A stretch of 39,067 bases of DNA, taken from Ignavibacteriales bacterium (GTDB lineage Bacteria; Bacteroidota; Ignavibacteria; Ignavibacteriales; Melioribacteraceae). Positions 18,204-39,017 of the stretch are shown in pieces. How positions within the stretch are numbered: position 1 is the stretch's first letter; the number at the start of each line of letters is the position of its first letter. The notes below the pieces were generated by a model, which made no database searches, was not told the origin of the DNA, and was given only the letters and a program-made list of their open reading frames with translations. The position numbers were made by a program, and so were the translations under genes. The DNA lies in NCBI GenBank assembly GCA_020061355.1, contig JAGUYK010000029.1, forward strand, positions 1 to 39,067, given 5' to 3'.

Positions 18204-18230
18204 AACCCCGATTGAAAAATCGGGGTTTTT
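18204..18230 (+). terminator. Intrinsic terminator after the second hsp20
   Basis: AACCCCGATT (18204-18213) pairs with AATCGGGGTT (18218-18227) around GAAA, followed by T residues. It ends the heat-shock cluster and touches the left attachment repeat of the mobile element. Before integration it may also have lain just downstream of the tRNA gene on the opposite strand. Confidence 0.9.
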
Positions 18231-18277
18231 TGTGGGCCCAGAAGGACTTGAACCTCCGACCCGCTGATTATGAGTCA
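18229..18277. repeat. attL: 49-bp direct repeat, tRNA 3'-end copy
   Basis: Identical over 49 bp to 38969-39017. It carries the discriminator, acceptor, T-arm and anticodon-loop part of the CAT tRNA on the minus strand, but the 5' part of the tRNA is absent, so this copy is a non-functional remnant. Identity stops at 18278 (C against G on the right). Confidence 0.95.
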
Positions 18278-18324
18278 CACAGAATTGCATTTTTCAGCGA
18301 TTTTCAAAGGATTTTTGATGGAAC

Positions 18325-18340
18325 TCCATACTGTCCATAC
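18325..18340. promoter_or_regulatory. Candidate integrase arm sites, left (2 x TCCATAC)
   Basis: Two TCCATAC copies start at 18325 and 18334, 9 bp apart, between attL and the integrase gene. The same heptamer is repeated five times next to attR, in the same orientation. Paired repeats flanking both core sites are what lambda-type integrases use as arm-binding sites. Confidence 0.65.
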
Positions 18341-18357
18341 AATAAAGGAGTTCTGCT

Positions 18358-19401
18358 ATGTTTATAACAAAAAACAACAAATCCAGATATTTCCAATTAG
18401 TCTATTTTGTAAATGGTAAAAGAACAACTATCTCAACTAAAACAGAAGATGAAAAACAAGCAAATGAATTTCTGTTTAAGCTCAAGTACAACCTCTTAAA
18501 GAAACCTCAAAGAATAATACCTCAAAAAGAAACTCCTTCGGTTGAACAGCTTATAACTTTATCTCAATATATGGGAGAATACCTTAATCATATAAAACCC
18601 ATAAAATCCCCACGCTATGCAACCTCAATTTCTCTTTCTTTTCGTCAATTGATTTTGTTCTGTGGCGATATAGTATTAAACTCTGTTAACTCAAAAATTG
18701 TAGATCAATTTATAACATCTACTTTTACAAGAACTCAAAGAGGTTCACATCTCTATTATCGCACACTCAAGGCAGCTTTTAACAAAGCGATAGGGTGGGG
18801 TTATATCTCGGTTAATCCATTTACTAAAGTAAAATTTCCTAAAGTATCAAAATCATTTCCAATATTTATTTCAGAAGATGAATTTCTAATAATCCTTGCA
18901 AATTGTCGGCAGCAGTTTTTACGCGAAATTTTCATCGTTGCTTTTTACACCGGCTTAAGAATAAGTGAAATCCTAAATATGAAATGGCACTGGATAAACT
19001 TTTTCCAGAATCAAATCACTGTTAAATGCTCGGAAGATTTTATCACAAAGAATAAGAATGAAAGGATTATCCCAATGTCAGTAAAGGTTAAAAATATTCT
19101 ATTAAATCGTTTTAACTCTGCTTCTCACAATCCAAATGAAGTTGTATTTTATCAAAAAAAGGGGATTAATTTATTACCTAATTTTGTCAGCAAACAATTT
19201 AAAAACTCTGTCCGTAATTCTAACCTAAGCGAAAAAATTCATTTTCACACTTTACGTCATTCGTTTGCTTCTTTGTTAGCTCAGAAGGGAGTTTCTCTTT
19301 ATATCGTTAAAGAATTATTAGGGCACGAAGATATTACCACTACTCAAATTTACAGTCATTTACAACAAAAGAATTTAAAAGATGCAATAAATTTATTGTG
19401 A
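18358..19401 (+). CDS. int: Tyrosine recombinase/integrase of the element
   Basis: This 347-aa site-specific recombinase should carry out integration at the tRNA and excision. The catalytic set is complete: Arg201 (TGLRISE), Lys near 231, His297 and Arg300 (HTLRHSFA), His323 (LLGHED) and the nucleophile Tyr332 (IYSHL). An N-terminal arm-binding-like region precedes a SAM-like core-binding domain (about 65-160). AAAGGAG lies 7 bases before the ATG. It begins 80 bp inside attL, with two TCCATAC repeats between, the classic int-att layout. It is clearly related to the second recombinase of the element (shared YYRTLKAAFNKA, VSLYxVKELLGH). It converges on the NYN gene, with 6 bp between the stops. 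Confidence 0.93.
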   Translation: MFITKNNKSRYFQLVYFVNGKRTTISTKTEDEKQANEFLFKLKYNLLKKPQRIIPQKETPSVEQLITLSQYMGEYLNHIKPIKSPRYATSISLSFRQLILFCGDIVLNSVNSKIVDQFITSTFTRTQRGSHLYYRTLKAAFNKAIGWGYISVNPFTKVKFPKVSKSFPIFISEDEFLIILANCRQQFLREIFIVAFYTGLRISEILNMKWHWINFFQNQITVKCSEDFITKNKNERIIPMSVKVKNILLNRFNSASHNPNEVVFYQKKGINLLPNFVSKQFKNSVRNSNLSEKIHFHTLRHSFASLLAQKGVSLYIVKELLGHEDITTTQIYSHLQQKNLKDAINLL

Positions 19402-19407
19402 AATATT

Positions 19408-20028
19408 TTAAGGTAACATCTTTGCAATTCGGTGATCAGAACAAGCCTTTAATAAGATTCTTTTCACGCCACTCACTGTTCTTGTGACCAAAATAATTTT
19501 CTTTTTTTTCTGGCGTGCCGATTCAATTGCTGGTACAAAGTCTGAATCTTTAGTGAAAATTAATATGCCATCAATATATGGTTTTTCAGCTAATCTAACC
19601 AAATCCACCCCAATCATTATATCTGTTCTTTTTTGAACAAAATTAGGTTCAAAATCTTCGTCTTGTAATTGTCTGCAATGATTTCTCAATTCTAATAATT
19701 TATCATTTCTAATTTTCCAACCTCTAAACTCTAAGGTTCCAAATCTTGTTTTAATATCACCATCTTTCTTAATCTCATCCAATTTTTTTGTTGATGTTCG
19801 AAATACATCTGTATCTGCAAAGTTAAATGGTTTAAGAGAAATTGGTAAATTTTGAATTTTACCATAAGGATTACAATCGTAATAATATATGGAGACTATT
19901 TTTTCATTTGGGAGTATATTTGAATTACAAATATTCTTAATTTTTACAGCTGAGATACCGAGTCCCGTTAATTCTTTAATTAAAATTCTAACATAATGCG
20001 CATCTAAAATTATTGTTATGTTTTCCAT
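19408..20028 (-). CDS. NYN-domain (PIN-like) ribonuclease family protein
   Basis: NYN/LabA-type proteins have a PIN-like fold with metal-binding acids and usually act as ribonucleases. The 206-aa protein has the first acid in IILDAHYVRIL, the motif RTDIMIGVDLVRLAEKPYIDG and the hallmark FTKDSDFVPAIESA, followed by KKIILVTRT. The early position has His-Tyr where many relatives have DxxN. I start it at ATG 20028 rather than an in-frame ATG-like codon at 20061 because the upstream extension would translate through a perfect hairpin (20040-20071). It lies between the integrase and the candidate origin, a usual place for cargo. A defence or RNA-decay role is inference. Confidence 0.82.
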   Translation of the reverse strand: MENITIILDAHYVRILIKELTGLGISAVKIKNICNSNILPNEKIVSIYYYDCNPYGKIQNLPISLKPFNFADTDVFRTSTKKLDEIKKDGDIKTRFGTLEFRGWKIRNDKLLELRNHCRQLQDEDFEPNFVQKRTDIMIGVDLVRLAEKPYIDGILIFTKDSDFVPAIESARQKKKKIILVTRTVSGVKRILLKACSDHRIAKMLP

Positions 20029-20039
20029 ATTTAAAATTC

Positions 20040-20071
20040 GAAACCCTTTGCGTATCCACACAAAGGGTTTC
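20040..20071 (-). promoter_or_regulatory. Perfect hairpin in the leader of the NYN gene
   Basis: GAAACCCTTTG (20040-20050) and CAAAGGGTTTC (20061-20071) form 11 perfect pairs around 10 nt, 12 bases upstream of the NYN start. A second small hairpin GCCGT-CCTA-ACGGC lies next to it (20074-20087). There is no T run, so an operator or a translation-controlling or RNase-target hairpin is more likely than a terminator. Confidence 0.55.
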
Positions 20072-20318: not shown

Positions 20319-21107
20319 TCAACTGGACAAATATTTAACATCTGTGTGTTCTTTAACTTTCCTACCTAATCGATATATTTTCATGTGGTTTTCTCTTTGT
20401 TCTTCTAATCGTTTGTCAATCATATTTGATAATTCGATATGTTTTGTTTTTAAGCGCATCTCTTGTCTCCTTAATTTCATTTCCATAACCAACTCTGCTA
20501 ATTTTTCTATAGATTCTAACTTAGTTGAATAATATGTCTGTTTTCTATGATATGTGTATTTTACAAAGAATTTCTTTTGATGTAATAAATCCGCAATTCT
20601 ACCGATTGTCCAATCAGCCGGTGGTTTAAGATTGCCTTTTTCACCTTTTCGGAAATTATCTTTCGATTTATATCCTATCATTGCATAACTCAATCTCTCT
20701 CTTGAAATTTTTTTATACGCACATGTTTTCCCTAAAATAGAAGATAATCCGCACAAAAAAGCAAAATGCTCGTATCTAAACTTGCCTTCAATTGTTTCAA
20801 ATAATACATTTTTCCCAATTCTGCAGTATGGCTCAGCTCCAGTCTCTTGAATTCTTTGAGCAAACAAAACGTTCAACAACTTGTATTTATCAAACGCAAG
20901 ATCATAATTTCCAATCTGACAATTGTATTCTTTTGCTATTCCAGCAATTCTTTCATTCAAGTCAATTTCTTTATTTGATCTATAAGCACACTCAATTAAA
21001 TAGAAAATAATAATATCATTTAGTCTTTCAGGTTTTCCGCCAACATAAATTAAAAAGCATAATGGAAACTCAATAAATTTTCCATCAAATTTTCTCTTTC
21101 TAATCAT
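20319..21107 (-). CDS. Unrecognised 262-aa protein, candidate DNA-binding replication initiator
   Basis: I do not recognise a named family. The protein is basic and soluble, with no signal or membrane segment. The middle (about 105-165) reads like a winged-helix unit: FAFLCGLSSILGKTCAYKKISRERLSYAMIGY, then a second helix pair with WTIGRIADLLHQKKFFVKYTYHRKQTYYS as recognition helix and wing. The C-terminus (about 190-245) is a charged helical region rich in Glu, Lys and Arg. Its ATG overlaps the stop of the recombinase upstream (ATGA), so the two are coupled. Four 13-bp iterons lie just past its stop. A Rep role is inferred from position only; a transcription regulator is the alternative. Confidence 0.6.
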   Translation of the reverse strand: MIRKRKFDGKFIEFPLCFLIYVGGKPERLNDIIIFYLIECAYRSNKEIDLNERIAGIAKEYNCQIGNYDLAFDKYKLLNVLFAQRIQETGAEPYCRIGKNVLFETIEGKFRYEHFAFLCGLSSILGKTCAYKKISRERLSYAMIGYKSKDNFRKGEKGNLKPPADWTIGRIADLLHQKKFFVKYTYHRKQTYYSTKLESIEKLAELVMEMKLRRQEMRLKTKHIELSNMIDKRLEEQRENHMKIYRLGRKVKEHTDVKYLSS

Positions 21108-22060
21108 GAATCCTTTCCATCTAATTTCTTTACTGCTTCTCTTAATGATTCCACATTCAAATGACTATAAATCTCAGTCGTACTTATCGAACTATGTCCG
21201 AGCAACTCCTTAACTACATAAAGCGATACACCTTTCTGCACCAGGTTGGATGCAAACGAATGCCTAAGCGAATGAAAATGTATCCCTTCATCATTCCCCA
21301 ATGTCCTACAAGCATCCTTAAAGCATTTAGAAGCATAATCTCCGGTATATGCACTTCCATCAGGTTTGCAAAACACAAATCCCTCATTTACCTCTTGCCT
21401 CTCGCTTAATACCTTTAAAAGTTTAATCAACTCTTCGCATATTGGTACGCACCTTTGCTTTTTACTTTTTGTCGTAAAATGTTCATCGCCAACAATTATC
21501 AATCTTCTTTCAAGGTCAATATTATTCCACCTCAAATTCACAACCTCATTTAATCTCAACCCGGTATAAAATGCAGTCTTAATAATCGCTCTAACAAATT
21601 CATTATTAATCTTTTCACATATAACCGACAAACGATCACCTGTTACATACTTCGGTGCTACTCTCTGAACTTTCGGCAATTTCACCTTAACAAATGGATT
21701 CTCACTAATGTAATCCCACTCCAAAGCTTTATTAAATGCAGCTTTCAAAGTCCGGTAATAAACTCTATAACCCCGTTTCGTTTTCCCCTGAAGCCAAATC
21801 ATAAATTTTTCAGCATCTTTTAATTTTATCTCCGAAATTACTTTTTGTATTCCTAAAAAATTATTAAGATGAACAAATGAACTTTGTATTGAACGTACAT
21901 AAGAAGGGGAGAGGTTTGCTTTTACATAATTTATATACTCATCTTCAAAAATTCTAAGTGTAATTACTTCCTTTCTATTTACCTCATTAAATAGAGTAGC
22001 AAGCAATTTGAACTTCTCAATATCCCGTTCGCTTATATTTTTAAGTAAACTTGTATCCAT
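21104..22060 (-). CDS. Second tyrosine recombinase
   Basis: A 318-aa recombinase with a complete active site: Arg169 (TGLRLNE), His263 and Arg266 (HSLRHSFA), His289 (LLGHSS) and Tyr298 (IYSHL). The core-binding domain is about residues 35-130. It is a close relative of the integrase at 18358, sharing YYRTLKAAFNKAL, ISxNPFxKVKLPK and VSLYVVKELLGH. It is translated in a minus-strand unit after an excisionase-type HTH gene and before the candidate Rep gene (4-bp overlap). No second pair of attachment repeats was seen around it. Possible roles are dimer resolution, a second recombination partner, or a relic of a nested element. Confidence 0.9.
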   Translation of the reverse strand: MDTSLLKNISERDIEKFKLLATLFNEVNRKEVITLRIFEDEYINYVKANLSPSYVRSIQSSFVHLNNFLGIQKVISEIKLKDAEKFMIWLQGKTKRGYRVYYRTLKAAFNKALEWDYISENPFVKVKLPKVQRVAPKYVTGDRLSVICEKINNEFVRAIIKTAFYTGLRLNEVVNLRWNNIDLERRLIIVGDEHFTTKSKKQRCVPICEELIKLLKVLSERQEVNEGFVFCKPDGSAYTGDYASKCFKDACRTLGNDEGIHFHSLRHSFASNLVQKGVSLYVVKELLGHSSISTTEIYSHLNVESLREAVKKLDGKDS

Positions 22061-22135: not shown

Positions 22136-22411
22136 TTAAGATTTTTGCTCCCTAATTATTTTTGAAAGTCTAAACCTCTTTTCTTGTTCAACAATTTTTT
22201 CTACCTCTTGCAACTTTGATTCTAATACCGAAACTACTTTCTCAGCATCTTCTAAATTTTTTATTATTGATTCTTTATTACTATTCCCAAATGGTCCATT
22301 AAAAATTTGAATATCTTCATGTTCCTTTGTAATAAAACTTTTCCGTAATAATTCAAATCGGTAAGCCATGTTTCTTATGTCATTTACTATTTCTCTTACA
22401 TTATTTTCCAT
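22136..22411 (-). CDS. Small coiled-coil protein, unknown function
   Basis: A 91-aa, highly charged protein; residues about 50-85 (KNLEDAEKVVSVLESKLQEVEKI...) have heptad-like spacing typical of a coiled coil. No recognised domain. Its ATG overlaps the end of the upstream HTH gene by 11 bp, so it is translated with it. About 75 bp separate it from the recombinase downstream. Conserved position in the excision/replication unit suggests an accessory or partner role, but nothing in the sequence proves it. Confidence 0.6.
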   Translation of the reverse strand: MENNVREIVNDIRNMAYRFELLRKSFITKEHEDIQIFNGPFGNSNKESIIKNLEDAEKVVSVLESKLQEVEKIVEQEKRFRLSKIIREQKS

Positions 22412-22688
22412 ATTTATTACCTCTGTTTGTTTCTTTTTTATATTTATTCTGTGTTTTTAATCCATATCTTCCTTTTATCCACTCATCCAATTCATTTTTA
22501 TAGAAAAATATTTTTTTCCCGGATGGTTTGTAGCATGGAATTTTTTTTAGTGCAGTTAACTTATAAAGGTAACTTGGTCTTAATCCTAAATATCTGCATG
22601 CTTCTACAAAAGTAAAAGGGGATTCACTTCTGTCAAGTATTAGTGATTCTATGTTGTTTAGTTTTTCAATGATTGGATCTTGTTGCAT
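22401..22688 (-). CDS. Excisionase/AlpA-type helix-turn-helix protein
   Basis: A 95-aa protein with a MerR-like winged HTH of the excisionase class (HTH_17): FTFVEACRYLGLRPSYLYKLTALKKIPCYKPSGKKIFFYKNELDEWI. Such proteins bend attachment DNA in excision or activate integrase genes (AlpA). The start is set at ATG 22688 because AGAAGG lies 8 bases upstream; a GTG at 22721 would add 11 residues without a ribosome site. The C-terminal tail is Lys/Asn-rich. It heads the minus-strand unit that includes the second recombinase and candidate Rep. Confidence 0.82.
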   Translation of the reverse strand: MQQDPIIEKLNNIESLILDRSESPFTFVEACRYLGLRPSYLYKLTALKKIPCYKPSGKKIFFYKNELDEWIKGRYGLKTQNKYKKETNRGNKYGK

Positions 22689-22763
22689 TGTATTTGCCTT
22701 CTTTTGTTTTTTACTTACCACAAAAAAAGCAAATAATAGAAGGGATTGTTACCTATGTTTTGT

Positions 22764-23510
22764 CTACTTTTTATCTACAGTTACATCATTTAATACAGCA
22801 TCAATTTCTGAACTCTGTCTATTGTCTCTGTAAACATTGTTTATTTTTGAAATTAAATCTGTCAATTGTCTTTCGGTTTTTTCTTCACCCTCGATATAAA
22901 AATGCCTCAATATATCTTTATAGCCCTTTCTTAAAAATCCTTTCTTTATTAGTTTGTCAATCAAAAAAGCGAAATCAGTAAATGTCCCAAACCAATTTAA
23001 TCTAATTGTATTCGTTTCTTCATTATTTAAGATATTTGTAAATTTTAATAATTTTTCTTTGTAATAATCTCTTTCAATTTCTAATAATCGGCAGAACCCA
23101 TCTAACTGCTCAATTATTTTTATTTTTTCTCTGTATTTTCTTTTGTATTTAATTTGTTCATTTTCTTCCAGCCATTTAACTTCTTTAACTGTACCAACTT
23201 CTCCAAATATGTCTGAACTTAAATTATATACAAATTCACTTGCATAAGTTCTTCTCATAATAAATCCTATTTCATCCATTCTCGGATTAGTCTCATTAAC
23301 AATATTTTCTTCAATACTTCTTATTTCTATTTCAAGTTTCTCAAGCTCAAATAATATTTTTTGAAAAGAATCTTTTTCGTTGATGATTTTTTTAAGATAC
23401 TTGGAAGTATACTTAAATCCACTAATATCTTTATCCTTATGTAATTCTTTATATTTAAGTTTTCTTGTCTCTTCATCCATATGCTGATCGGTATAAGTAA
23501 CCCTGTTCAT
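22764..23510 (-). CDS. 248-aa coiled-coil protein with an RteC-like C-terminal region
   Basis: No firm family. Residues about 50-95 are Glu/Lys-rich and likely coiled coil (FQKILFELEKLEIEIRSIEENI). The C-terminal 85 residues, beginning RLNWFGTFTDFAFLIDKLIKKGFL and continuing FYIEGEEKTERQLTDLISKI, have the pattern of the C-terminal region of RteC-type and related Bacteroidota mobile-element proteins (W-x-G-x-x-x-D-hydrophobic). That resemblance is from memory and should be treated as a hint. Its ATG overlaps the stop of a 48-aa membrane-peptide gene (ATGA). The pair is divergent from the toxin-antitoxin operon. Confidence 0.65.
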   Translation of the reverse strand: MNRVTYTDQHMDEETRKLKYKELHKDKDISGFKYTSKYLKKIINEKDSFQKILFELEKLEIEIRSIEENIVNETNPRMDEIGFIMRRTYASEFVYNLSSDIFGEVGTVKEVKWLEENEQIKYKRKYREKIKIIEQLDGFCRLLEIERDYYKEKLLKFTNILNNEETNTIRLNWFGTFTDFAFLIDKLIKKGFLRKGYKDILRHFYIEGEEKTERQLTDLISKINNVYRDNRQSSEIDAVLNDVTVDKK

Positions 23511-23740: not shown

Positions 23741-23861
23741 ACTTTTTAGTTAACAAGAATATAGTTTGAAAATGGATTAATATTTTTCAGTTAATCAATA
23801 AATTCAACTTAATAGTTGTATATTATCTTTTATTTCATATTATTCTCAACTTTTTAGTTGA
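23741..23861. promoter_or_regulatory. Repeated dyad operators upstream of the toxin-antitoxin genes
   Basis: CAACT-TAAT-AGTTG at 23805-23818 and TCAACT-TTTT-AGTTGA at 23846-23861 are perfect palindromes with the same arms, their centres 42 bp apart. A weaker copy, ACT-TTTT-AGT, lies at 23741-23750. E. coli MqsA binds a similar palindrome with AACCT and AGGTT arms around a short T-rich spacer. They are well placed for autorepression by the MqsA-like antitoxin. Confidence 0.65.
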
Positions 23862-23890
23862 CTATTACGATAATATTTAAGAACTTTGCA

Positions 23891-24250
23891 ATGAGAAAAA
23901 CAACAATTGATGATGTGTCGGCTTTTTTAAGCGATTTCTTTACAAAATTTGATATTTATGACATTATATTTGAAAGGCGAGACAAAAATGACCAAGCATT
24001 ACTCGACCTTGAGATTACACCTTCCCAACGAAAAGAAATTATTAAAAAACTTGTACCCGTAGATTATCTATCTGGCCCTAATCCTGATGAGAACGATACT
24101 TCCCGTCCCGATTATTGGGAATTTGGTATTAAAGTACGTAATGTTTTCGTTTATATAAAAATTAATATTGGTAAGAAAAGTAAACCTGTAATTTGTATTT
24201 CTTTTCATATTGCTGAATACAAAATGAAATTTCCTTTTAGAAAAGGATGA
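23891..24250 (+). CDS. MqsR-like toxin of a type II toxin-antitoxin pair
   Basis: A 119-aa protein resembling the Bacteroidota branch of the MqsR-like (RelE-superfamily, mRNA interferase) toxins. The N-terminal region is VSAFLSDFFTKFDIYDIIF. The family-like run LDLEITPSQRKEIIKKLVPVDY is followed by SGPNPDE, a WEFGIKVRNVFVYIKINIG strand pair, and the C-terminal ICISFHIAEYKMKFPF. The ATG at 23891 matches the family N-terminus better than a TTG at 23858. It precedes an MqsA-type antitoxin by 4 bp, the toxin-first order usual for mqsRA. Family from recognition; RNA cleavage not proven. Confidence 0.75.
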   Translation: MRKTTIDDVSAFLSDFFTKFDIYDIIFERRDKNDQALLDLEITPSQRKEIIKKLVPVDYLSGPNPDENDTSRPDYWEFGIKVRNVFVYIKINIGKKSKPVICISFHIAEYKMKFPFRKG

Positions 24251-24254
24251 TAAA

Positions 24255-25256
24255 ATGAAACTCATATTAGATTGTCCATATTGCGAGAGTAAAGCTGAAT
24301 TAAAAATTGATAAGCAAACCAGAACATTCAGAAAAGAAGAATTCCATGTGTTTTCATATTATTACAAATGTAAAAAATGTGGTAAAGAATTTACAACAAC
24401 AGAATTGGATGAAGTGAATGTTCACCAAGTCTATAACCAATATCGTGAAAAATATTCTATTCCATTTCCTGAACAATTAACCTCCATTCGTGAACATTAT
24501 GGTTTATCTGGTGCTAAAATGTCAGAAATACTTGGTTTTGGAACTAATCAATTTCGTCTTTACGAAAGTGGTAAAATGCCAGAAGGTGGCAACTCCACTG
24601 TTTTAAGTCTTATTGTCAATCCGATGTCTTTCAAAGAAATTTTAATTAAAAATTCATCTCTTGTGTCTTCAAGAAAATATGATGAGATAATTCAAAAAAT
24701 AGATAAAGATATTAATGACAACTTTACTATATGTTTAGAACAATCTTTATTCCCTCAAAATAAAATACCAAATAAATTTACCGGGTATTCGATTCCAGAT
24801 TTTGAAAAATTTGCTAATATGGTTCTGTTTTTAATAAGTAATGCACCGTTCAAAGTTCGCTTGAATAAATTGCTATTTTATGCGGACTTTGCACAGTACA
24901 AATATTCTGGTCGTTCAATTTCTGGTTGTAAATATGCTGCAATCGATATGGGTTCGGTTCCAGATAATTACAGTCTTATATTCGGTTTACTTGAATCTAA
25001 GGGCTATTTAACAACAGAATTAGTTACAATAAAAGGAAAAGAACATGATAAGTTTGTTCCGTGTAAATTATTTGATAAAAAATTGTTTGATGCTTCTGAA
25101 ATCGAAATCCTAAATTCTGTTCTTCATAAATTTCATTCCAAAACCACAAACGAAATAAAACTTATTTCACATGATGAATTGGCGTGGATCAAAAACGAAA
25201 AAACAAAATCAATTATTGATTATTCATTTTATGCACCTCAGCTAATTGCGCTTTAA
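24255..25256 (+). CDS. MqsA-type antitoxin with zinc ribbon, HTH and C-terminal Panacea (SocA/DUF4065) domain
   Basis: A 333-aa fusion antitoxin. Residues 1-50 are a zinc ribbon with two Cys pairs (CPYCES, CKKCGKEF). Residues about 72-110 form an Xre-type HTH as in MqsA (LTSIREHYGLSGAKMSEILGFGTNQFRLYESGKMP). Residues about 185-333 are a Panacea/DUF4065 domain (FANMVLFLISN ... VRLNKLLFYADFAQYKYSGRSISGCKYAAIDMGSVP). Panacea domains are known as promiscuous toxin-neutralising modules. The HTH should bind the dyads at 23741-23861. It lies between the toxin and the type III methylase, with gaps of 4 bp on each side. Confidence 0.85.
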   Translation: MKLILDCPYCESKAELKIDKQTRTFRKEEFHVFSYYYKCKKCGKEFTTTELDEVNVHQVYNQYREKYSIPFPEQLTSIREHYGLSGAKMSEILGFGTNQFRLYESGKMPEGGNSTVLSLIVNPMSFKEILIKNSSLVSSRKYDEIIQKIDKDINDNFTICLEQSLFPQNKIPNKFTGYSIPDFEKFANMVLFLISNAPFKVRLNKLLFYADFAQYKYSGRSISGCKYAAIDMGSVPDNYSLIFGLLESKGYLTTELVTIKGKEHDKFVPCKLFDKKLFDASEIEILNSVLHKFHSKTTNEIKLISHDELAWIKNEKTKSIIDYSFYAPQLIAL

Positions 25257-31965: not shown

Positions 31966-33284
31966 CCCCTTAAACTTTTTATTCTTTTCAATTTATTTCT
32001 TATCGTAAACCTTCGTGGTATATGTACTATAGATTTAAGATTTGGTAGAGTATCTTCTTTAACACTATTCAAAAATTGACTCAATGTATCAACAGCATCA
32101 TCATATTCACCATTAGGAAAGTCCTCACATTCATTTACAAACTCTTTCACCCAATATTTATCCTTTGGCAGATAAACTTTCCCGGCTTCAACTAATGGAG
32201 TAATAGAATGCACTCTTGCAACCTTATCACTTGTAGCTTGCACCTTTAGAATTGGTAATCTCGTTTCCCGCTGAAGTTCTTGTATTAAACTTTGTCCGCT
32301 TGCTTTATCTTCAACTAATATTTCATTCGGCTTATAAACATCATTTAATTCTATAACTTTTCTTTTCAATTCCGGGAATTCAACTCTTCCTTTCCACATA
32401 TCCAATAAGTAATATCCATTCTGTGCAACTTTCCATGTAGTACAAACCGAATAATCATTCTCCTCATTTTTCTTAAATGCCGTATCCCAGCTCTGAACTA
32501 CCTTGAATACTCTTAAAGTATTTAGCTCATGTTCTAAATAATAATTCCACCAATCATTTTTAATTATTCCAAAATCTTTATCATCAGTGAACAATCCATA
32601 AATTTCCTGGTCTCTCAATGCCGGTGAAATATCTTTCGCCAGCTCATCAATTTCTAATGGATCAATCAATGGATTATCATAAGATGAGAAGTTAAACGCT
32701 TCCCAATTCTTAATTCTGTCGTCTTCCGTTTCACCTTTCACGTTTTCCGTTTCACATTTCTCATACAACTCACAAAACAAATGCTTCTCATTACTCTTTT
32801 TAATTCTTTTCCCTTTCGGTGTCCCGCCGATTATAACTTTAGCTTTATAATCCAGGAGCATCGGTCTAATGCTTTCTTCCCACAACCTTCTATTCTTTAG
32901 AATTATTCCAGCTTCATTCAGAATTATTAAAGCATATCCGAACCCTTCAATATTTTCAGGTTTATCCGCACTTCTAAAATCACATACGGCATTTAATAAT
33001 TTCAGATCATTTCTATTGCTCCTGTACTTCCAAAGATTCCTCGGCACATCTCTAAGGACCGGTAGGAAATATCTTTCAATGTATCGTTCAATATTTCCAT
33101 ATATCGTATCCACCCATAGAATAGGGGAAACATTATCAACCATATTCTCAATTACATAATTTGCTAAACCTCTGGTAAGCCCAAACCTTCTGCCTTTGGC
33201 AACTACCTTAAATCTCGCATTCGATTCAAAAAATATCTTCCTCTGATTCTCATGGTAGCTCAACTGTAATTTAATTTCTTTCAT
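31962..33284 (-). CDS. Phage terminase large subunit
   Basis: The large terminase is the ATPase-nuclease that packages DNA into proheads. Near the N-terminus KVVAKGRRFGLTRGLA stands in for Walker A, as in other Terminase_6-type proteins, and ALIILNEAG is the Walker B region. The coupling motif appears in KVIIGGTPKGK. The RNase H-like nuclease begins with QSWDTAFKKNEENDYS (first Asp) and includes VEDKASGQSLIQEL and the late acid pair DDAVDTLSQF. With the ATG at 33284 it is 440 aa; a TTG at 33299 is the alternative. It overlaps the portal gene by 4 bp and follows the small-terminase gene. Confidence 0.92.
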   Translation of the reverse strand: MKEIKLQLSYHENQRKIFFESNARFKVVAKGRRFGLTRGLANYVIENMVDNVSPILWVDTIYGNIERYIERYFLPVLRDVPRNLWKYRSNRNDLKLLNAVCDFRSADKPENIEGFGYALIILNEAGIILKNRRLWEESIRPMLLDYKAKVIIGGTPKGKRIKKSNEKHLFCELYEKCETENVKGETEDDRIKNWEAFNFSSYDNPLIDPLEIDELAKDISPALRDQEIYGLFTDDKDFGIIKNDWWNYYLEHELNTLRVFKVVQSWDTAFKKNEENDYSVCTTWKVAQNGYYLLDMWKGRVEFPELKRKVIELNDVYKPNEILVEDKASGQSLIQELQRETRLPILKVQATSDKVARVHSITPLVEAGKVYLPKDKYWVKEFVNECEDFPNGEYDDAVDTLSQFLNSVKEDTLPNLKSIVHIPRRFTIRNKLKRIKSLRG

Positions 33285-33341
33285 ATTCTCAATGCTCAAT
33301 TTACCCGTAGTCTTTTTGGCGGGTTCTCAATTCTCAATTAG

Positions 33342-33644
33342 TTATATGTTTTTTCTCTCTACCATAATCTTATATTCACCACTTTCCTCAATCTTTTCAG
33401 CTTGACCTAAATATTGTTTTCCTAACCATATAAGCATTGTAACATTTCCTTGCATTGCAACTTGTATCTGTTTCCGCTTTAATCGCTCTTTGAGATTTGC
33501 TCTCCCTTTTATAAGAAAAATCTCAAAATTCCTTTTGAGTGTATTTTCATCATACCCTAATGCCTCCGCAATCTCTTTGTTTGTTAACCCGCATTTCGCG
33601 AGTCTCTCAATTATTATTTCATCTTTATTTTTTTCTTTTTTCAT
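33342..33644 (-). CDS. Putative terminase small subunit (HTH protein)
   Basis: A 100-aa basic protein with an N-terminal HTH (IIERLAKCGLTNKEIAEALGYDENTLKRNF), the type found in small terminases that recognise the packaging site. The C-terminal half has AMQGNVTMLIWLGKQYLGQAEK, a sequence pattern common in phage small-terminase proteins. GGGGGAGAT lies about 10 bases upstream of the ATG. It is the first gene of the leftward packaging unit (small terminase, large terminase, portal), directly divergent from the capsid unit. Confidence 0.78.
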   Translation of the reverse strand: MKKEKNKDEIIIERLAKCGLTNKEIAEALGYDENTLKRNFEIFLIKGRANLKERLKRKQIQVAMQGNVTMLIWLGKQYLGQAEKIEESGEYKIMVERKNI

Positions 33645-33870
33645 TTTCTTTTATCTCCCCCTTTCAGAAATATTGTCACACTACATTATACATCTAATAT
33701 TATTTTTACTCACCTCACCCAACTTGATTTTCTTTTCTCTTTTTTTCTCTTCTCTTCCAAATAGTTATTCCAATTCCAAATCATGCAACACTAATACAAC
33801 ATTAATTGTATATTACTTATAGGACTCATTAGTGAAGTTCTAAATGAATTATTATGGGGGGAATATTTTT
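33645..33870. promoter_or_regulatory. Divergent promoter region between the packaging and capsid units
   Basis: A 226-bp AT-rich, pyrimidine-rich stretch separates the starts of two oppositely transcribed head-gene units, so promoters for both must lie here or read through from outside. I cannot assign -35/-10 boxes with confidence. GGGGGGAA at 33856-33863 is the ribosome site of the protease gene. Confidence 0.5.
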
Positions 33871-34848
33871 ATGGATTTTGAAATCTTTAAAATTGGCACT
33901 CATACTTCAGATATGGGTATCACAAAAGACTATTGTCTTGATGACCTTAATTTTATCGCACACTCTTATGATCCTAAAACTCTCGAAGCTCCCATCGTTG
34001 TTGGTCACCCAAAACATGATTCTCCGGCTATGGGATGGATTGACTCACTCAAAGTTGTGGGGGACAAGCTCATCGCCTCAGCAAAACAAATCATCCCGGA
34101 GTTTGTCACAGCAGTAAAACAAGGTCTCTACAAAAAAAGAAGTATATCGCTCGATAAGGAAGGCAAACTTCGCCATGTCGGTTTCCTTGGTGGTGCTATA
34201 CCCGCTGTAAAAGGTTTAGCCGATATTCAATTTGCAGAAGGGGAGTGTACTACTTTTGAACTCGATGATGGAGATTTATCTTTTACAGAAGAAGAATCTG
34301 CATTTTCAGAAAAAGAAAATCAGTCTCAAATGCAACCGGAGCTTTCTCAATTAATTAACGAACTCTCAAATGTTAAGGATGCTCTACTTGCTCTATCTCA
34401 AAACTTTTCAGAGGATTTATCTAAACGCAATGATTTTGAAAATCTTTCAAACAAAATATCTGCTCTTGATAACAAAATTAATTTATCATCATTCACAAAA
34501 TTATTGGATGATAAAGTTTCTTCCGGTTCTCTTACTCCTGCTATGAAAAATAAAATCGAATCAATTGTGGATTATGTTACTACTCAAAATTATTCGTCGG
34601 TTGATTTAGTAAAATTTCGGAACGACTTAACCCGGCTCTTTTCTGAATTTGTTAACTCAGTTCCAAAATTTCTTAACTTCCAAAACTTTGCTGAAAAACA
34701 AGAACACATTGAAAATCTTTCGGAAAAATTTCGTTTCGCTGAAGTAGATCCCCGTTCCAGAGAGGTCCATAGCAAAGCATCGCAATTAATGAAATCACAA
34801 AATCTTTCTTACTTATCTGCAGTTCAAAAAGTAATTCAAAATTTATAA
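33871..34848 (+). CDS. Phage prohead protease fused to scaffold domain (Mu gpI-like)
   Basis: Head maturation proteases of this type cut scaffold and capsid during prohead assembly. Residues about 1-130 resemble the Mu gpI-like protease: APIVVGHPKHDSPAMGWIDSLKV, then LIASAKQIIPEFVTAVKQGLYKKRSISL and FLGGAIPAVKGL. The His in GHPKHD and the Ser in RSISL are plausible catalytic residues. Residues about 140-320 are Glu/Asn/Leu-rich and helical (ELSQLINELSNVKDALLAL), as in a scaffold. The ATG at 33871 has GGGGGG 7 bases upstream; an ATG at 33844 would read through this site. It is 325 aa and opens the rightward capsid unit. Confidence 0.8.
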   Translation: MDFEIFKIGTHTSDMGITKDYCLDDLNFIAHSYDPKTLEAPIVVGHPKHDSPAMGWIDSLKVVGDKLIASAKQIIPEFVTAVKQGLYKKRSISLDKEGKLRHVGFLGGAIPAVKGLADIQFAEGECTTFELDDGDLSFTEEESAFSEKENQSQMQPELSQLINELSNVKDALLALSQNFSEDLSKRNDFENLSNKISALDNKINLSSFTKLLDDKVSSGSLTPAMKNKIESIVDYVTTQNYSSVDLVKFRNDLTRLFSEFVNSVPKFLNFQNFAEKQEHIENLSEKFRFAEVDPRSREVHSKASQLMKSQNLSYLSAVQKVIQNL

Positions 34849-34860: not shown

Positions 34861-35787
34861 ATGCCAGATCGTTTATCAAATTTACGTGTAGTAGATGAAG
34901 TCCTAACAAATGTTGCTCGCGGTTTTTCTAATGCTTCATTTGTCGGCACTAATCTATTTCCTCTTGTTGAGGTTAATAAAGAAGCCGGAAAAATTCCTCA
35001 GTTCCCGGCTGAAGCTTTCAAAGTTTATAATACTGAAAGAGCAATAAGAGCTAAATCAAATCGGATTAATCCTGAAGATAGAACAACAATTGATTATATC
35101 CTTACTGAACACGATTTAGAGTATCCTATCGACTATCGCGAAGCAGAGGAAGATATTTATAACCTTGAAATCTATGCAACTTATGTTGTTTCAGAAGGAA
35201 TAAATCTCCGACTCGAAAAAATGGTTGCTGATTTGTGCCAAAATTTATCTAACTATCCAACCGGTAATAAAGTCACTCTTTCAAGTGCTGATAAATTTAC
35301 TACTACAACTTCAAATCCATTTACAATATTCAGCACGGCTAAAAATGCAGTCCGTTCTAAGATTGCAAAATATCCTAATACTTGTATTCTTGGTGCCTCT
35401 GCTTTTAACGCACTTAAAGAACATCCATCTGTTACTGATCGGATAAAATATACTGAGCACGCTGTTGTAACAGAGGAAATACTCAAAACACTTCTTGGTT
35501 TTGAAAATTTATATGTTGGTAATGCAGTCTATGTAAACGATTCAAATGCTTTCAATGACATTTGGTCAGATAATGTAATTGTAGCTTATGTACCGCCCAA
35601 AAAATCAGATATTGAAAGAAATGTTTATGAACCTGCATTCGGCTATACTTTACGCAAAAAGAATAATCCGGTTGTTGATAAATATGATGAAGGTGGTAAA
35701 GTCCATTTTGTTCGTTCAACAGATAATTTTATCTCAAAGATTGTTGGTTCCGATGCCGGCTATTTAATTAACGACACTAATACATAG
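34861..35787 (+). CDS. Phage major capsid protein
   Basis: A 308-aa shell protein. The N-terminus LSNLRVVDEVLTNVARGFSNASFVGTNLFPLVEV and the region FKVYNTERAIRAKSNRINPEDRTTIDYILTEHDLEYPIDYREAEE are typical of the HK97-fold capsids of Mu-like and related phages. The C-terminus contains a strand-rich domain (VIVAYVPPKKSD, EPAFGYTLRKKNNPVVDKYDEGGKVHFV). It follows the protease-scaffold by 12 bp with AAAGGAG before the ATG. The gene order protease, capsid, small gene, cement protein is that of many phage head modules. Confidence 0.85.
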   Translation: MPDRLSNLRVVDEVLTNVARGFSNASFVGTNLFPLVEVNKEAGKIPQFPAEAFKVYNTERAIRAKSNRINPEDRTTIDYILTEHDLEYPIDYREAEEDIYNLEIYATYVVSEGINLRLEKMVADLCQNLSNYPTGNKVTLSSADKFTTTTSNPFTIFSTAKNAVRSKIAKYPNTCILGASAFNALKEHPSVTDRIKYTEHAVVTEEILKTLLGFENLYVGNAVYVNDSNAFNDIWSDNVIVAYVPPKKSDIERNVYEPAFGYTLRKKNNPVVDKYDEGGKVHFVRSTDNFISKIVGSDAGYLINDTNT

Positions 35788-35897: not shown

Positions 35898-36245
35898 ATG
35901 TACTACAAAATAATCAAATCCGATCTTTTCATTAACGGTAAACTCTTTCCCGAAGGTGATTTAATTTCTATGGACGCTCCTCCTGATGATTCTATTATCA
36001 GCTATTTAGAATTAGTCTCAGAAAGAAATTCTGATTTTGATAACGATAAAAAAGACCACACTTATTCCGTAAATGCTGTAGGAAGGCAATTTGTTATTAC
36101 ACCATCTGTAACAGAAGACGCATTTATGGATGTTTCAAAAAGTTTTCACACACCCGTTGTTAACGAAATAGATCCTTTACAAACAACTGAAATTATGCAA
36201 TCAATCAAACAAAAAAAGAAAAACAAAAAGAAATTGATTAACTAA
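35898..36245 (+). CDS. Small protein of the capsid unit, unknown function
   Basis: A 115-aa protein not recognised as a named family. The N-terminus MYYKIIKSDLFINGKLFPEGDLISMDAPPDDSIISYLELVSE looks like a small folded beta unit; the C-terminus ends in a Lys-rich run (QKKKNKKKLIN). GATGAGG lies before the ATG. It is between the capsid and cement-like genes on the same strand, so a virion accessory is likely, possibly head completion or joining, but this cannot be shown. Confidence 0.6.
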   Translation: MYYKIIKSDLFINGKLFPEGDLISMDAPPDDSIISYLELVSERNSDFDNDKKDHTYSVNAVGRQFVITPSVTEDAFMDVSKSFHTPVVNEIDPLQTTEIMQSIKQKKKNKKKLIN

Positions 36246-36265: not shown

Positions 36266-36601
36266 ATGAAAACTGAACAGCCACTATTAATTACATCTAT
36301 CTTAGCACCTGCAGACCATACATCAAGTAAAAATAAATTTATTGGCTTCGATGGAAATCTTTGCGGTGCTAATTCTAAATCACTTGGCGTTTGCAATGCT
36401 AATACAGCCATTAATAATCAAATGCCGGTTATGTCAAAAGGTATTGCTCTTGTCTTATCAGGAGCCGCAGTTTCAGTCGGAGCTAAAATAGCTTCCGATG
36501 CAAACGGTAAAGCAGTTACTTATTCATCTGGAGAACATAATGGATTTACTCTCGATTCCGCTTCCGGTGCTGATGAACTTATTCGTGTTCTCTTATTGTA
36601 A
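36266..36601 (+). CDS. DUF2190-like capsid cement/decoration protein
   Basis: A 111-aa protein with the Gly/Ala/Ser-rich beta pattern of DUF2190-type head proteins: FIGFDGNLCGANSKSLGVCNA, VMSKGIALVLSGAAVSVGAKIASDANGKAVTY and a terminal LDSASGADELIRVLLL. These proteins sit on the outside of phage heads and stabilise them. GGAG lies upstream of the ATG. It is placed two genes after the capsid, as in other head modules. Assignment is by resemblance. Confidence 0.7.
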   Translation: MKTEQPLLITSILAPADHTSSKNKFIGFDGNLCGANSKSLGVCNANTAINNQMPVMSKGIALVLSGAAVSVGAKIASDANGKAVTYSSGEHNGFTLDSASGADELIRVLLL

Positions 36602-36611: not shown

Positions 36612-37862
36612 ATGCGAAAAATAAATTCTTTTCTAAAATCTAATAGCTTACAAGCTAATCGTGTCGTCCAATTTCCATTTGACGATATTCATACGTTCGC
36701 CTGGGGTGAAAAAGCATTTCGGATATTTGTTGATGCAAACAATACAAATTCTATCCAAGATGGTAAATCTTGGGAAACCGCCTTTACATCTCTTCAGCAA
36801 GCACTAAATTATTTACCCGATAATATGATGTATTATAATGCATTTATTCTCGTAGCCGGAGGAAATTATTCCTTACCAACTATTACATCAAAGAAAAATG
36901 GAATTATTTTCTTAGAGTATATTGGTGATACCTGGAATAATGCAAATGACCCTGATTTTCTTACACTTGGTAAAACATTCACATCAAATCCGGCTCTACT
37001 TCAACAAAGTTCATCTATCGAGCTTGGTGGTCGCAATTTTGAGATCCATTTTCGCAGTCGTAATCCTGCATGGATTTATGTTTATAACGGTTGGCGGGTC
37101 AAGATCATGCCTAACTCAACTTTTACCGATGCATTCACTTGTCATAGTGATGTTTTTATTCTTGTTACAAATATGGTTCTTGATGCCACTGATGCGACTT
37201 ATACTAACTTCAGAACTCTATTTAGATTCATAAATCCTACCTCATCACTTTGTGGTCTTCTTATTGATTCATTTTCTGTCATTGGTCGCGGTAATGATGC
37301 CACAGATGAATGGAAGGGTATAATAGCAATCCACGATAATACAAATGTCATTCGTCTTGATATTGGTTCTGGGTATTTCCCTGGATGGGCTTCTGGGAAA
37401 ACTTCACCAAACTCTAAAAAGTTTATCTTCAATAATCTTAAAAAATTCTTTACAATGGCTCCCGTTGCCAGTTCTACAGTTCCAAGAATGAATATTGATC
37501 TAACAAGTATTGATTTCACAGCCGGGGATACCGGTCAAACTCAAATTAAAATGAGTATTAATCAATATCATTCTGGCGGTAAACTTAAGATTGATGATTC
37601 ATTAGTCGATTTAACAGATAATAGCGGTAAAATAACTGAACTAAATAAAACCAACTCCGGTACAGTTACCTGCTATATAGGCAAGGGGATTAAGTACAAT
37701 ACTAACATTCCAGTATTTTCAACAAATAATTCAGTTCCAGCAGATTCATTACTCAGTAATAAGGACGTTACATTCTGGATTGATGAAACAAATAACAAAC
37801 TTATGTTCAAGCTTAAATACAACTCCGGAACAGTCAAATCCGGTGAGCTTGCAATAACTTAA
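36612..37862 (+). CDS. Putative parallel beta-helix (pectate-lyase-like) protein of the capsid unit
   Basis: A 416-aa protein starting at ATG 36612, with AGAGG before it; longer readings overlap the upstream gene. The segment FRIFVDANNTNSIQDGKSWETAFTSLQQALNYLPDN is the entry motif of right-handed beta-helix proteins (DGKSWxxAFxxLQxAL), followed by repetitive short-strand sequence to the end. The C-terminus (LLSNKDVTFWIDETNNKLMFKLKYNSGT) resembles a trimeric tail-spike or fibre tip found in phage structural proteins. In an element without tail genes it may decorate the capsid or a borrowed tail, or act on surface glycans. Not membrane-bound; no signal peptide. Confidence 0.7.
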   Translation: MRKINSFLKSNSLQANRVVQFPFDDIHTFAWGEKAFRIFVDANNTNSIQDGKSWETAFTSLQQALNYLPDNMMYYNAFILVAGGNYSLPTITSKKNGIIFLEYIGDTWNNANDPDFLTLGKTFTSNPALLQQSSSIELGGRNFEIHFRSRNPAWIYVYNGWRVKIMPNSTFTDAFTCHSDVFILVTNMVLDATDATYTNFRTLFRFINPTSSLCGLLIDSFSVIGRGNDATDEWKGIIAIHDNTNVIRLDIGSGYFPGWASGKTSPNSKKFIFNNLKKFFTMAPVASSTVPRMNIDLTSIDFTAGDTGQTQIKMSINQYHSGGKLKIDDSLVDLTDNSGKITELNKTNSGTVTCYIGKGIKYNTNIPVFSTNNSVPADSLLSNKDVTFWIDETNNKLMFKLKYNSGTVKSGELAIT

Positions 37863-37906
37863 CTTTATATTTATTAATTTTATTATTATATTTATTTGTA
37901 ATTCTG

Positions 37907-37951
37907 TGTCCATCCAAGGGAACCTGCCCTCTCCCGGGATGGACATTTTCT
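37907..37951 (+). terminator. Terminator hairpin after the capsid unit
   Basis: TGTCCATCC (37907-37915) pairs with GGATGGACA (37937-37945), with a smaller inner stem AGGG/CCCT, followed by TTTTCTTT. It is placed 45 bp past the last head gene. Confidence 0.65.
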
Positions 37952-38576
37952 TTAACTAAAAGTCTTTGTTTCGCAAAATAATTTGTCGTTTCGCCTTCGG
38001 CTCATTCCAAACTTTTTTGCTCATAAAACATTATAAAAAGATTTTGCTTCATTCCGCTGAAGCTTCATTTTGCAAAAACTTTTTAGGTTTTGTTTCGCCT
38101 GCCTGCCGGTAGGCAGGTTCGCAAATAAAAAATGAAAAACTTTTTTACTTGCTCACTCATTTTTTGCCTGCACTGAGCTTGTCGAAGTGCAAATTATTCG
38201 TTTGTCTTTTGCTCACAATTTTTGTGGCATTGCCATTTCTACGTAAGTCAAAAATCTGTGCCAAAATCCAAACTCATAACTTGCTTTATTACCACCCTTC
38301 CTGAATCAGCATTCTTTTTTTATTGTTTGTGCTCTCCCGCTTTGCGGGTTCGCACTTCATTAAAATCATAAATAACGCCAGCATTTTTCAATTTAAGCCG
38401 ATAAAGGAATCCGTCACGCAAGGGTATACAAGCGGTTTTTGCTTCGGTTTTTATTAGTCGCTTCGCTCCTTAAAAACAGCAAAAATCCGCCCTTGCGTGC
38501 CACCTTTACGGCTTTTTGGTTCGCTTCGCTCACCCTAAATGTTTAGCTGGCGTTATTTTAATTTTTTTGGAGTGCT
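37952..38576. other. Non-coding right-end region rich in imperfect palindromes
   Basis: No convincing gene. Visible hairpins include AAAAAG-A-TTTTGC with GCAAAA-A-CTTTTT (about 38035-38088), CCTGCCT-AGGCAGG (38098-38117), TGCACT-AGTGCA around CTGAGCTTGTCGAAG (38169-38191) and a 189-nt nested structure (38370-38558). Phrases such as TTCGCTTCGCTCACC recur in the loops. Confidence 0.7.
38370..38558. repeat. 189-nt nested imperfect palindrome, attC-like
   Basis: Outer arms AAATAACGCCAGC and GCTGGCGTTATTT are perfect over 13 bp. Inner arms are AGCCG(A)TAAAGG with CCTTTACGGCT (one bulged A), CACGCAAGGG with CCCTTGCGTG, and GCGGTTTTTGC with GCAAAAA(T)CCGC (one bulged T). AAC and GTT at the outer ends and single extrahelical bases are features of integron attC sites, but the RYYYAAC/GTTRRRY boxes match only in part. 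Confidence 0.5.
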
Positions 38577-38819
38577 ATGCTCGGTCGTGTCGTTATTCGC
38601 TCGAAATTTTTTAATGGATGGTTAATTCGGTTGATTCTTTTTAAGACATCATTATTTGTAAATGTTTTTAGTCCAAATGGTGGTTTTTATTCCTGGAATT
38701 TTGGCTCAATTGATAAAGCAATTTTGTTTTATAATTTCTTACTAAAATCTATTAAAAGAAAAAATAAAAAATATTTAGATCGTGCAGAAAATTTTTTATC
38801 TTTAACCAACAATAAATAA
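38577..38819 (+). CDS. Possible 80-aa cassette-like gene, unknown
   Basis: An open frame of 80 codons beginning 18 bp after the large palindrome, with GGAG 4 bases before the ATG. The N-terminal half is hydrophobic and basic (WLIRLILFKTSLFVNVF); the second half reads like a real protein (GGFYSWNFGSIDKAILFYNFLLKSIKRKNKKYLDRAENFLSL). No family recognised. Its place right after an attC-like hairpin is what an integron cassette gene would have. It could also be a chance frame. Confidence 0.4.
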   Translation: MLGRVVIRSKFFNGWLIRLILFKTSLFVNVFSPNGGFYSWNFGSIDKAILFYNFLLKSIKRKNKKYLDRAENFLSLTNNK

Positions 38820-38846
38820 TCTATAAACCGAACTGATATGGCAAAG

Positions 38847-38897
38847 TCCATACAAAAGTCCATACAAAAGTCCATACAAAGTCCATACACTCCATAT
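38847..38897. promoter_or_regulatory. Candidate integrase arm sites, right (5 x TCCATAC/T)
   Basis: TCCATAC starts at 38847, 38859, 38871 and 38882, and TCCATAT at 38891. Spacing is 12, 12, 11 and 9 bp. The same heptamer in the same orientation is doubled beside attL with 9-bp spacing. The array lies 72 bp inside attR. Confidence 0.7.
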
Positions 38898-38931
38898 AGT
38901 AAATCATCAGGAATAACTCTCTCCATAAAAG

Positions 38932-38968
38932 CAAAAAAGCCCGAATACATTTTATATTCGAGCTTTTC
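38932..38968 (-). terminator. Terminator downstream of the tRNA, supplied by the element
   Basis: Read on the minus strand, AAGCTCGAATA pairs with TATTCGGGCTT (one mismatch) and is followed by six T residues in all. It lies just past the tRNA 3' end on the element side of attR, so the element replaces the tRNA terminator lost by integration. Confidence 0.75.
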
Positions 38969-39017
38969 TTTGTGGGCCCAGAAGGACTTGAACCTCCGAC
39001 CCGCTGATTATGAGTCA
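38969..39017. repeat. attR: 49-bp direct repeat within the tRNA gene
   Basis: Identical to 18229-18277. It covers the tRNA from about base 30 (anticodon stem) to the discriminator plus 4 bp, so the element restores the full tRNA when it integrates. Confidence 0.95.

Follow-up and report, generated by a model that had tools for sequence, protein, structure and literature searches.

A contig of 39,067 bp from an Ignavibacteriales bacterium (GenBank assembly GCA_020061355.1, contig JAGUYK010000029.1; the whole contig is the window considered here, labeled G000:C24 among the genomes compared) carries at 18229-39017 an element that is probably an intact integrative island, a member of an Ignavibacteria-type lineage of capsid-forming satellites that would need the tail of a helper phage. 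The element is bounded by attachment (att) repeats at a tRNA gene, encodes its own integrases together with a head and packaging module, and has no recognized tail gene. Its relatives share this architecture and a common ancestor, and their head genes are under purifying selection. Since these relatives point to an old, maintained lineage and not to a broken virus, the island most likely borrows tails. A preliminary description, made from the letters of the contig, had read the element as a capsid-forming satellite; the relatives at tRNA sites, the selection on their head genes and their single ancestry all speak for that reading.

A tRNA island with a head module and no recognized tail

The borders come from a repeat search of the contig. 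A 49-bp exact direct repeat lies at 18229-18277 and 38969-39017, and the second-longest repeat spaced by more than 8 kb is 17 bp long. The right copy overlaps the 3' part of a complete tRNA-Met(CAT) gene on the minus strand (38972-39046); as the contig ends at 39,067, only 50 bp lie beyond that copy. The element has a G+C content of 31.7%, against 35.7% in the host part. An 18.6-kb contig of IMG/VR (L059) carries the major capsid protein (MCP) of the window at 100% identity. For gene assignment, 20 open reading frames (ORFs) of the window were compared with Pfam and 18 element proteins with PHROGs at E-values up to 1, the restriction-modification (RM) proteins Mod and Res with Pfam only. The features are as follows.

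18229..18277: attL, 49-bp copy of the 3' part of tRNA-Met, identical to 38969-39017
18358..19401 (+): tyrosine integrase INT1; PF00589 3.5e-35; same position in three att-complete relatives
19408..20061 (-): NYN-domain protein; PF01936 2.1e-11, PADLOC HEC-09 5.5e-7
20319..21107 (-): replication-type protein; in cluster c10 with the PrimPol protein of relative G059
21104..22060 (-): second tyrosine integrase, INT2; PF00589 5.9e-37
22136..22411 (-): small ORF; no Pfam match
22401..22721 (-): excisionase-type helix-turn-helix (HTH) protein; HTH_17 6.6e-11, excisionase phrog_66 3.9e-6
22764..23510 (-): 248-amino-acid (aa) protein; no Pfam match, unnamed phrog_32856 9.5e-4
23858..24250 (+): 130-aa ORF preceding an antitoxin-like gene, possible toxin by position alone
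24255..25256 (+): MqsA-like/Panacea antitoxin-type protein; PF13274 62 bits, PF15731 30.5 bits
25246..27756 (+): type III RM Mod; PF01555 4e-40, PADLOC MTase_II 1.4e-75 and MTase_III 7.8e-46
27753..30350 (+): type III RM Res; PF04851 2.3e-17, PADLOC REase_III 5.2e-13
30399..30506: conserved inverted repeat/hairpin of 108 bp, between cargo and portal
30799..31965 (-): Mu-type portal; PF06074 2.7e-89
31962..33299 (-): terminase large subunit, TerL; PF17289 5.7e-21
33342..33644 (-): probable terminase small subunit, TerS; phrog_309 6.9e-6, homologue at the same position in many relatives
33844..34848 (+): head maturation protease; phrog_976 1.7e-57
34861..35787 (+): MCP; PF03864 6.4e-12, phrog_1005 2.1e-102, PDB 3bjq 1.5e-53 with alignment
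35898..36245 (+): small head-module protein (115 aa); resembles small proteins at the same position in some relatives
36266..36601 (+): cement protein; PF09956 9.6e-10, phrog_673 2e-21
36612..37862 (+): beta-helix-like protein, candidate adhesin with an inferred start codon; 72% identity to its counterpart in the second element of this genome
38009..38573: non-coding stretch (565 bp), conserved and structured; 74% to contig C44 of the same genome, 72% to G002
38969..39017: attR, overlapping the 3' part of tRNA-Met

The left part thus runs from INT1 through the NYN protein, the replication-type protein, INT2, the excisionase-type HTH protein and a toxin-antitoxin-like pair to the type III RM system; in the right part portal, TerL and TerS (-) diverge from protease, MCP, 115-aa protein, cement and beta-helix-like protein (+). 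The 49-bp repeat and the PF00589 matches bear out an element with its own integrase and att sites, as first described, and HTH_17 and phrog_66 the excisionase-type HTH protein; the single integrase of that description is INT1, and INT2 at 21104-22060 raises the count to two. The integrases match PF00589/PF13102 and are tyrosine recombinases; no convincing DDE transposase or MuB is found among the window's Pfam and PHROG matches.

Terminase, portal, protease and MCP are all encoded by the element, in unbroken reading frames, and the MCP is 40-45% identical to its five nearest records of tailed Mu-like phages. Profile matches uphold the portal, protease, capsid and cement-like protein already named in the preliminary description. 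Of its terminase pair TerL stands by PF17289; the TerS assignment is weak, an unnamed PHROG family scoring the same as phrog_309 (6.9e-6), with the homologue in many relatives on its side.

The search for tail genes was made at several levels. No tail, baseplate, neck or lysis family is among those listed for the 18 element proteins in PHROGs (for TerS, the best 25 of 28 families), nor among the Pfam matches listed for the 20 window ORFs. A phmmer search used 83 queries, with Pasteurella phage AFS-2018a supplying tail and neck genes and L076, L041, L038, L118, L094, L046 and G078 supplying late genes; no ORF matched in the window, in the three complete relatives G058, G059 and G062, or in G065, G066, G067, G069, G080, G081, G083 and own44, a second capsid element of the window's own genome. 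The same queries matched 2-14 ORFs in each of 12 tailed control loci (12/12), nine of which lent no query, some controls being close kin of the query sources. Clade loci other than L077/L078 gave single endolysin-type matches only (L042, L084, L068, L074 and L102); the matches of L077/L078 are to themselves or near-selves and give no independent support for a tail. A PHROG scan of the three complete relatives returned 28 families, none of the 25 listed being named as tail; it covered 47 of 86 ORFs of at least 70 aa, the rest being assigned, long (mostly cargo) or cut by the end of a piece. Profile and phmmer searches therefore agree with the earlier statement that recognizable tail, baseplate, head-tail joining and lysis genes are absent: the tail and lysis modules of a complete temperate prophage are not seen in the element, and the unassigned remainder of its late region consists of the 115-aa protein, one protein of 416 aa and an ORF of 80 aa.

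Relatives, ancestry and selection

Relatives were sought in 58 genomes, the window's own included, and in viral contigs. The window's TerL has matches in 9 of the 58 genomes (again counting its own), and scanning for MCP yielded 30 loci on genome contigs and 64 on viral contigs. Host names attached to the closest loci are Ignavibacteriales, Ignavibacteriaceae, Ignavibacterium, Melioribacter, Melioribacteraceae and BRH_c32; also among these loci are a record under the title Sulfuricurvum and a genome under the title Bacteroidetes. Three relatives are complete, with att repeats on both sides:

G059, contig C61: 22.5 kb, 48-bp repeat, tRNA-Thr
G058, contig C5: 31.2 kb, 44-bp repeat, tRNA-Asp
G062, contig C101: 39.4 kb, 48-bp repeat, tRNA-Met

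All three share the layout of the window: INT1 (+), INT2 (-), cargo, then portal-TerL-TerS (-) against protease-MCP-small protein-cement (+), with few variable genes between cement and att. The same gene set thus occurs at other tRNA sites without tails, as the preliminary description expected of a satellite; the sign by which it would have recognized a deletion product, a tail module following the beta-helix gene on the right, is seen nowhere in the clade, some members of which have lysis-like late genes.

The cargo varies from one element to the next: G059 and G066 carry type IIG RM, G083 and G067 Snf2-type helicases, and own44 type I RM. All six elements tested with PADLOC have RM or a Snf2-type helicase as cargo. 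In L061 and L062, which come from a single metagenome, the MCPs are about 100% identical and the cargo differs. With cargo that can be swapped, the lineage acts as a vehicle for restriction systems among little-studied bacteria.

In a tree of MCP, TerL and portal (42 rows), the 31 rows without a recognized tail (30 distinct loci, g21 and L039 being the same contig) form one clade, with an ultrafast bootstrap of 95 and a Shimodaira-Hasegawa-like approximate likelihood ratio test (SH-aLRT) of 98. Its sister is L077/L078, and the tailed phages, Mu-like and Nitrospirae-type, branch outside; a single change of tail state suffices, as it does in 98% of 200 bootstrap trees. Four of the 31 rows are att-complete and 8 have the same layout; the other 19 are fragments or less clear, and for them the label means 'no tail seen' only. 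Besides the att-bounded window, only 10 of the tail-less rows extend at least 7.5 kb to the right of MCP. Tailed labels, in this tree and in one of MCP only, were assigned by us from gpF, gpJ, tail matches or long late ORFs, those of the outgroup rows L079 and L094 from neck-type genes and neighboring ORFs. The Ignavibacteria-type loci also come together in the MCP-only tree (67 rows; SH-aLRT 99). A wider portal scan of 79 loci recognized gpF in 55 of the 65 lying outside the clade and in none of 14 stretches from clade or sister contigs.

Head genes are under purifying selection across the relatives. The ratio of nonsynonymous to synonymous substitution rates (dN/dS) among clade members is 0.02-0.19 in 34 of 35 comparisons, the remaining one (PROT, L029/L032) being saturated; the pairs were chosen by us from among relatives of the window, and 3 of the 35 lines are duplicates (L031 and L066 are near-identical). 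The broken frames and relaxed selection of a decaying prophage are thus not what is found: the window's head genes are open, and the dN/dS of its relatives is low. With four att-complete elements, a rooted tree and the sibling islands treated below, the lineage is a resource for the study of head capture and tail loss.

Some loci fit the common pattern less neatly. In L042 the TerL gene is split into two ORFs; in L070 no portal lies beside TerL, and a portal fragment stands at one contig end. The second capsid element of the window's own genome (own44; G000:C44, L016+L017, 30,965 bp) has a type I RM system, a histidine kinase, an integrase fragment at the contig end and no tail match; after its beta-helix-like gene come a gene that we take, from a motif, to be M15-peptidase-like and a weakly holin-like gene. 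In Pasteurellaceae, loci L052, L053, L054, L055, L057 and L058 carry a protease and MCP of the window family, some near a large primase-like ORF and an integrase, and form one clade in the MCP tree; terminase, portal and tail were not recognized within the stretches covered.

Proposed helper tails and the alternatives

Capsid-forming phage-inducible chromosomal islands (cfPICIs), of which the founding paper is reportedly that of Alqurainy et al. in 2023, provide the nearest model. As set out in the parts of PMC10690885 and PMC11389934 consulted, these are integrated islands with capsid, protease, portal and terminase genes and no tail genes, which are packaged in a head of their own and use the tail of a helper. 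The window island likewise combines these four functions, is integrated and has no recognized tail. It differs from that description in its Mu-type head module, the divergent orientation, the lack of a recognized connector, the two tyrosine integrases and the Ignavibacteria-type host; nor is a convincing HNH packaging nuclease found among the window's matches, and the likeness is one of described gene content, head genes being outside the comparison. By analogy, the cycle of the island may be pictured thus: INT1, INT2 and the HTH protein would excise it from tRNA-Met; it would replicate, with a PrimPol-type protein in six relatives and the shorter replication-type protein in the window; portal, protease, MCP and cement would build a Mu-type procapsid of its own; its own terminase would fill this with island DNA; a helper phage would supply neck, tail and, for the window copy, lysis; finally, the particle would deliver the island with a cargo that presumably serves in defense.

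Capsid-forming satellites are already known, and what is added here is the Ignavibacteria-type hosts and a different type of head. The preliminary description placed such satellites mainly in Proteobacteria and Firmicutes; that is too narrow, as the consulted passages of PMC10690885 already have capsid-forming ones in Streptomyces. MulchRoom and MiniFlayer there encode terminase, portal, capsid and scaffold, and MiniFlayer attaches to its helper's neck; MulchRoom, like the window, has an integrase and no tail genes of its own. The two are distinguished by being without primases, by direct terminal repeats and by an encoded head-tail adaptor (PMC10690885). No capsid-forming satellite of Bacteroidota or Ignavibacteria was found described in the titles and abstract openings that were covered, most subscription papers lying outside that coverage, and none in the outline and passages of PMC12324425 consulted; among the records and titles listed, nothing joined Ignavibacteria, prophage and satellite, and no Ignavibacteria prophage title had such a subject. 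Among tailed phages, the Mu-like Escherichia phage PhiKM and Pasteurella phage AFS-2018a have MCPs 40-43% and portals 30-32% identical to those of the window, with the protease adjoining MCP; unlike the window, they have gpF/gpG-type, sheath or tail protein, tube, tape-measure and baseplate genes and transposition proteins, and their late genes all run in one direction.

Several observations weigh against a satellite that depends on a helper's tail. The head-tail connector (gpJ) and gpF were not recognized by profile or phmmer, which leaves the docking of a helper tail unexplained; the 115-aa protein may be the connector. The set of tail queries is not very sensitive: control L104 was matched only via gpF and gpG, and L109 only via gpF, gpG and a gpJ-type query. 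Some clade members have genes resembling lysis genes, which is unusual for satellites (L042 by profile; L068, L074 and L102 by similarity to the L077 endolysin; own44 and others weakly and by a motif), and one complete relative, G062, reaches 39.4 kb. As for a helper in the window's own genome, the search was confined to three families, PF10145, PF04984 and PF04860, and none of them matched. The tree program warned that the long L077/L078 branch joins the outgroup, a join that may be false and that makes their sister place unsure; the MCP-only tree places L077/L078 inside the clade, so that the tailed label needs three changes. Their tail state itself comes from a weak tape-measure match (8e-4), a T7-type fiber PF03906 (5e-5, below the cut-off) and gene content; they also carry endolysin, RecT and DnaB. 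If L077/L078 are tail-less as well, the clade is merely larger.

A rival reading is that the particles work with no phage tail at all, the beta-helix-like protein on the head binding the host. Connector, neck and tail genes are not recognized in the clade loci examined, the own genome gave no match to the three tail and portal families tried, and several clade members have lysis-like genes. Between the two elements of the window's genome, moreover, the beta-helix-like protein is 72% identical, against 52% for portal and 67% for MCP, as would be expected of a host-specific adhesin. The missing connector and the lack of a match to those three families keep this possibility in play, with an outside chance. 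The gene is not universal, however (none in G059 and L035), and the name beta-helix is one that we give from the sequence pattern: no profile supports it, and the best hits of a PDB sequence search (E 0.15 and 0.41) are not significant. To our knowledge, portals and terminase motors of the window's kind occur only in tailed particles, and we know of no precedent for tail-less delivery by such particles.

A tail may instead be present and too diverged for profiles, which do overlook tail genes that evolve fast; in the sister phage G078 many late genes lack a family match, and some tailed controls were matched only through head or neck genes. The window's three unassigned late proteins (115, 416 and 80 aa) are, however, too short for a usual tape measure, and in G059 the interval from cement to att holds only ORFs of 52-82 aa, so a hidden tail is very unlikely. 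The preliminary description took as its main alternative a prophage that had recently lost its tail genes, and thought the non-coding right end might mark the loss. The homology of the head module to tailed Mu-like phages is in keeping with such an origin; but four att-complete elements at three kinds of tRNA have the same tail-less architecture, the three-gene tree gives a single clade, and selection on the head genes is purifying. The right end, for its part, holds a conserved stretch of 565 bp and is no obvious scar. This stretch folds far better than shuffled sequences (z -7.3 and -7.6 on the two strands), nothing in Rfam comes close to the gathering score, and the matching sequences lie at L016:2722-3245 (-) and in L314. 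A recent deletion is accordingly judged unlikely, and we would give it little credence. Least probable of all is that the host has domesticated a head module, for instance as a particle akin to a gene-transfer agent. G007 and G061, apparently one genome (BRH_c32), do have parts of the head module at three places, namely head genes on G007:C19 and G061:C31 and TerL plus portal alone on G007:C35, with no PF00589 match on any of the three contigs; against this stand the integrases and att repeats of the window and three relatives, as well as the different cargo of L061 and L062, whose head modules are near-identical. An island that borrows helper tails is thus the account preferred here.

A conserved inverted repeat, sibling islands and cargo

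A conserved inverted repeat, new here, lies between cargo and portal and also marks a set of sibling islands. The site is 107-110 bp long and alike in 11 clade loci, the window included; it holds two inverted copies of a motif of about 30 bp and could form a stem of 25 pairs, in which, over nine sequences, 5 pairs have changed in both arms and still pair, while 5 cells are broken. Three of four single-strand DNA folds of the site beat 200 of 200 shuffles, and the fourth all but one. A covariance model of the site (R1), run on the 58 genomes with stricter filters and up to 66 candidates scored per genome, matched in 17, 11 of which have no TerL match. A packaging signal, an origin and a recombination site all fit as its function; a dif-like site was considered as a further reading.

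Eighteen such site-bearing stretches (L295-L312) were examined over 4.5 kb on the right side: 11 have the same roughly 228-aa protein, 13 a 60-105-aa protein and 8 a secreted nuclease, presumably of SNase type; none of the three occurs in the capsid-element loci compared. A small right-end protein, R3, occurs in both kinds alike. At G056:C16, L297 and L296 are sibling islands in tandem at tRNA-Lys, where copies of a 44-bp repeat lie 50 kb apart (the middle 31 kb is outside the stretch read); INT1, PrimPol, INT2 and HTH there are 48-57% identical to their best capsid-element matches, and the genome scan gave no TerL match in G056. In this best-seen sibling island the integrases, PrimPol and HTH are held in common and a nuclease module replaces the head module, which looks like one island backbone with an interchangeable right-hand module. 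In L308 a portal-like fragment of 166 aa lies about 4 kb from the site copy. In L302 (G039), a 53-bp direct repeat of tRNA-Phe at 9532 and 16280, 6.7 kb apart, stands beside a site copy and may bound a small element.

P4-like satellites and phage-inducible chromosomal islands (PICIs) are built on a backbone of integrase and primase. The L297 island has this plan, to which the window adds a full head module; the resemblance is one of plan only, sequences being outside the comparison. By analogy, head and nuclease islands would parallel cfPICI and PICI. Somewhat short of an even chance, we think, is a larger scheme in which all these belong to one large family of tRNA islands of Ignavibacteria, an independent parallel to PICI and cfPICI: the backbone would comprise two tyrosine integrases, a PrimPol-type protein, HTH, swappable defense cargo and the 108-bp site, perhaps a shared packaging or replication signal; the right module would be either a Mu-type head without neck and tail or a secreted nuclease; and the head would have been captured, its neck and tail lost, and the result would then have spread and become diverse.

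The replication genes vary. PrimPol was recognized by profile in G059 and G066 and by homology in four more relatives (six in all). The window has a shorter member of the PrimPol-containing cluster, with no primase domain and no Pfam match, which on our own reading appears to correspond to the C-terminal part of the G059 protein; a 734-aa protein of G058 at that position did not match PrimPol. The candidate origin of the preliminary description found no backing: repeats in 22060-24300 are few and weak, and none is of iteron type.

The occupied sites were also considered. A test for empty sites beside hsp20 is uninformative, as hsp20 has no adjoining tRNA in any of the 19 loci of relatives that were read. 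The capsid elements G058 and L035 (the latter judged by its right flank) use the pfkA/tRNA-Asp site, and hairpin-bearing stretches adjoin it in G035, G023 and G027. The tRNA-Asp is present in 26 of 30 pfkA loci, with an integrase adjoining in one (L260); the other 25 are not claimed to be empty, given the hairpin-bearing stretches at L295, L299 and L311.

As for the window's cargo, profiles match Mod, Res and the NYN protein, in accord with the type III RM and NYN nuclease first named; Mod is assigned to type III from its neighbor, a type III Res. The MqsRA-type toxin-antitoxin pair of the same description was set aside. The antitoxin-type protein is MqsA-like at threshold only (30.5 against 30 bits) and has a SocA/Panacea domain (62 bits), and its 130-aa partner has no family match better than 0.4, so the identity with MqsR is unconfirmed. 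In the host part of the window, 1919-8938 and 8964-10535 are genes that we take to resemble SprA and a PorX-type regulator of the type IX secretion system.

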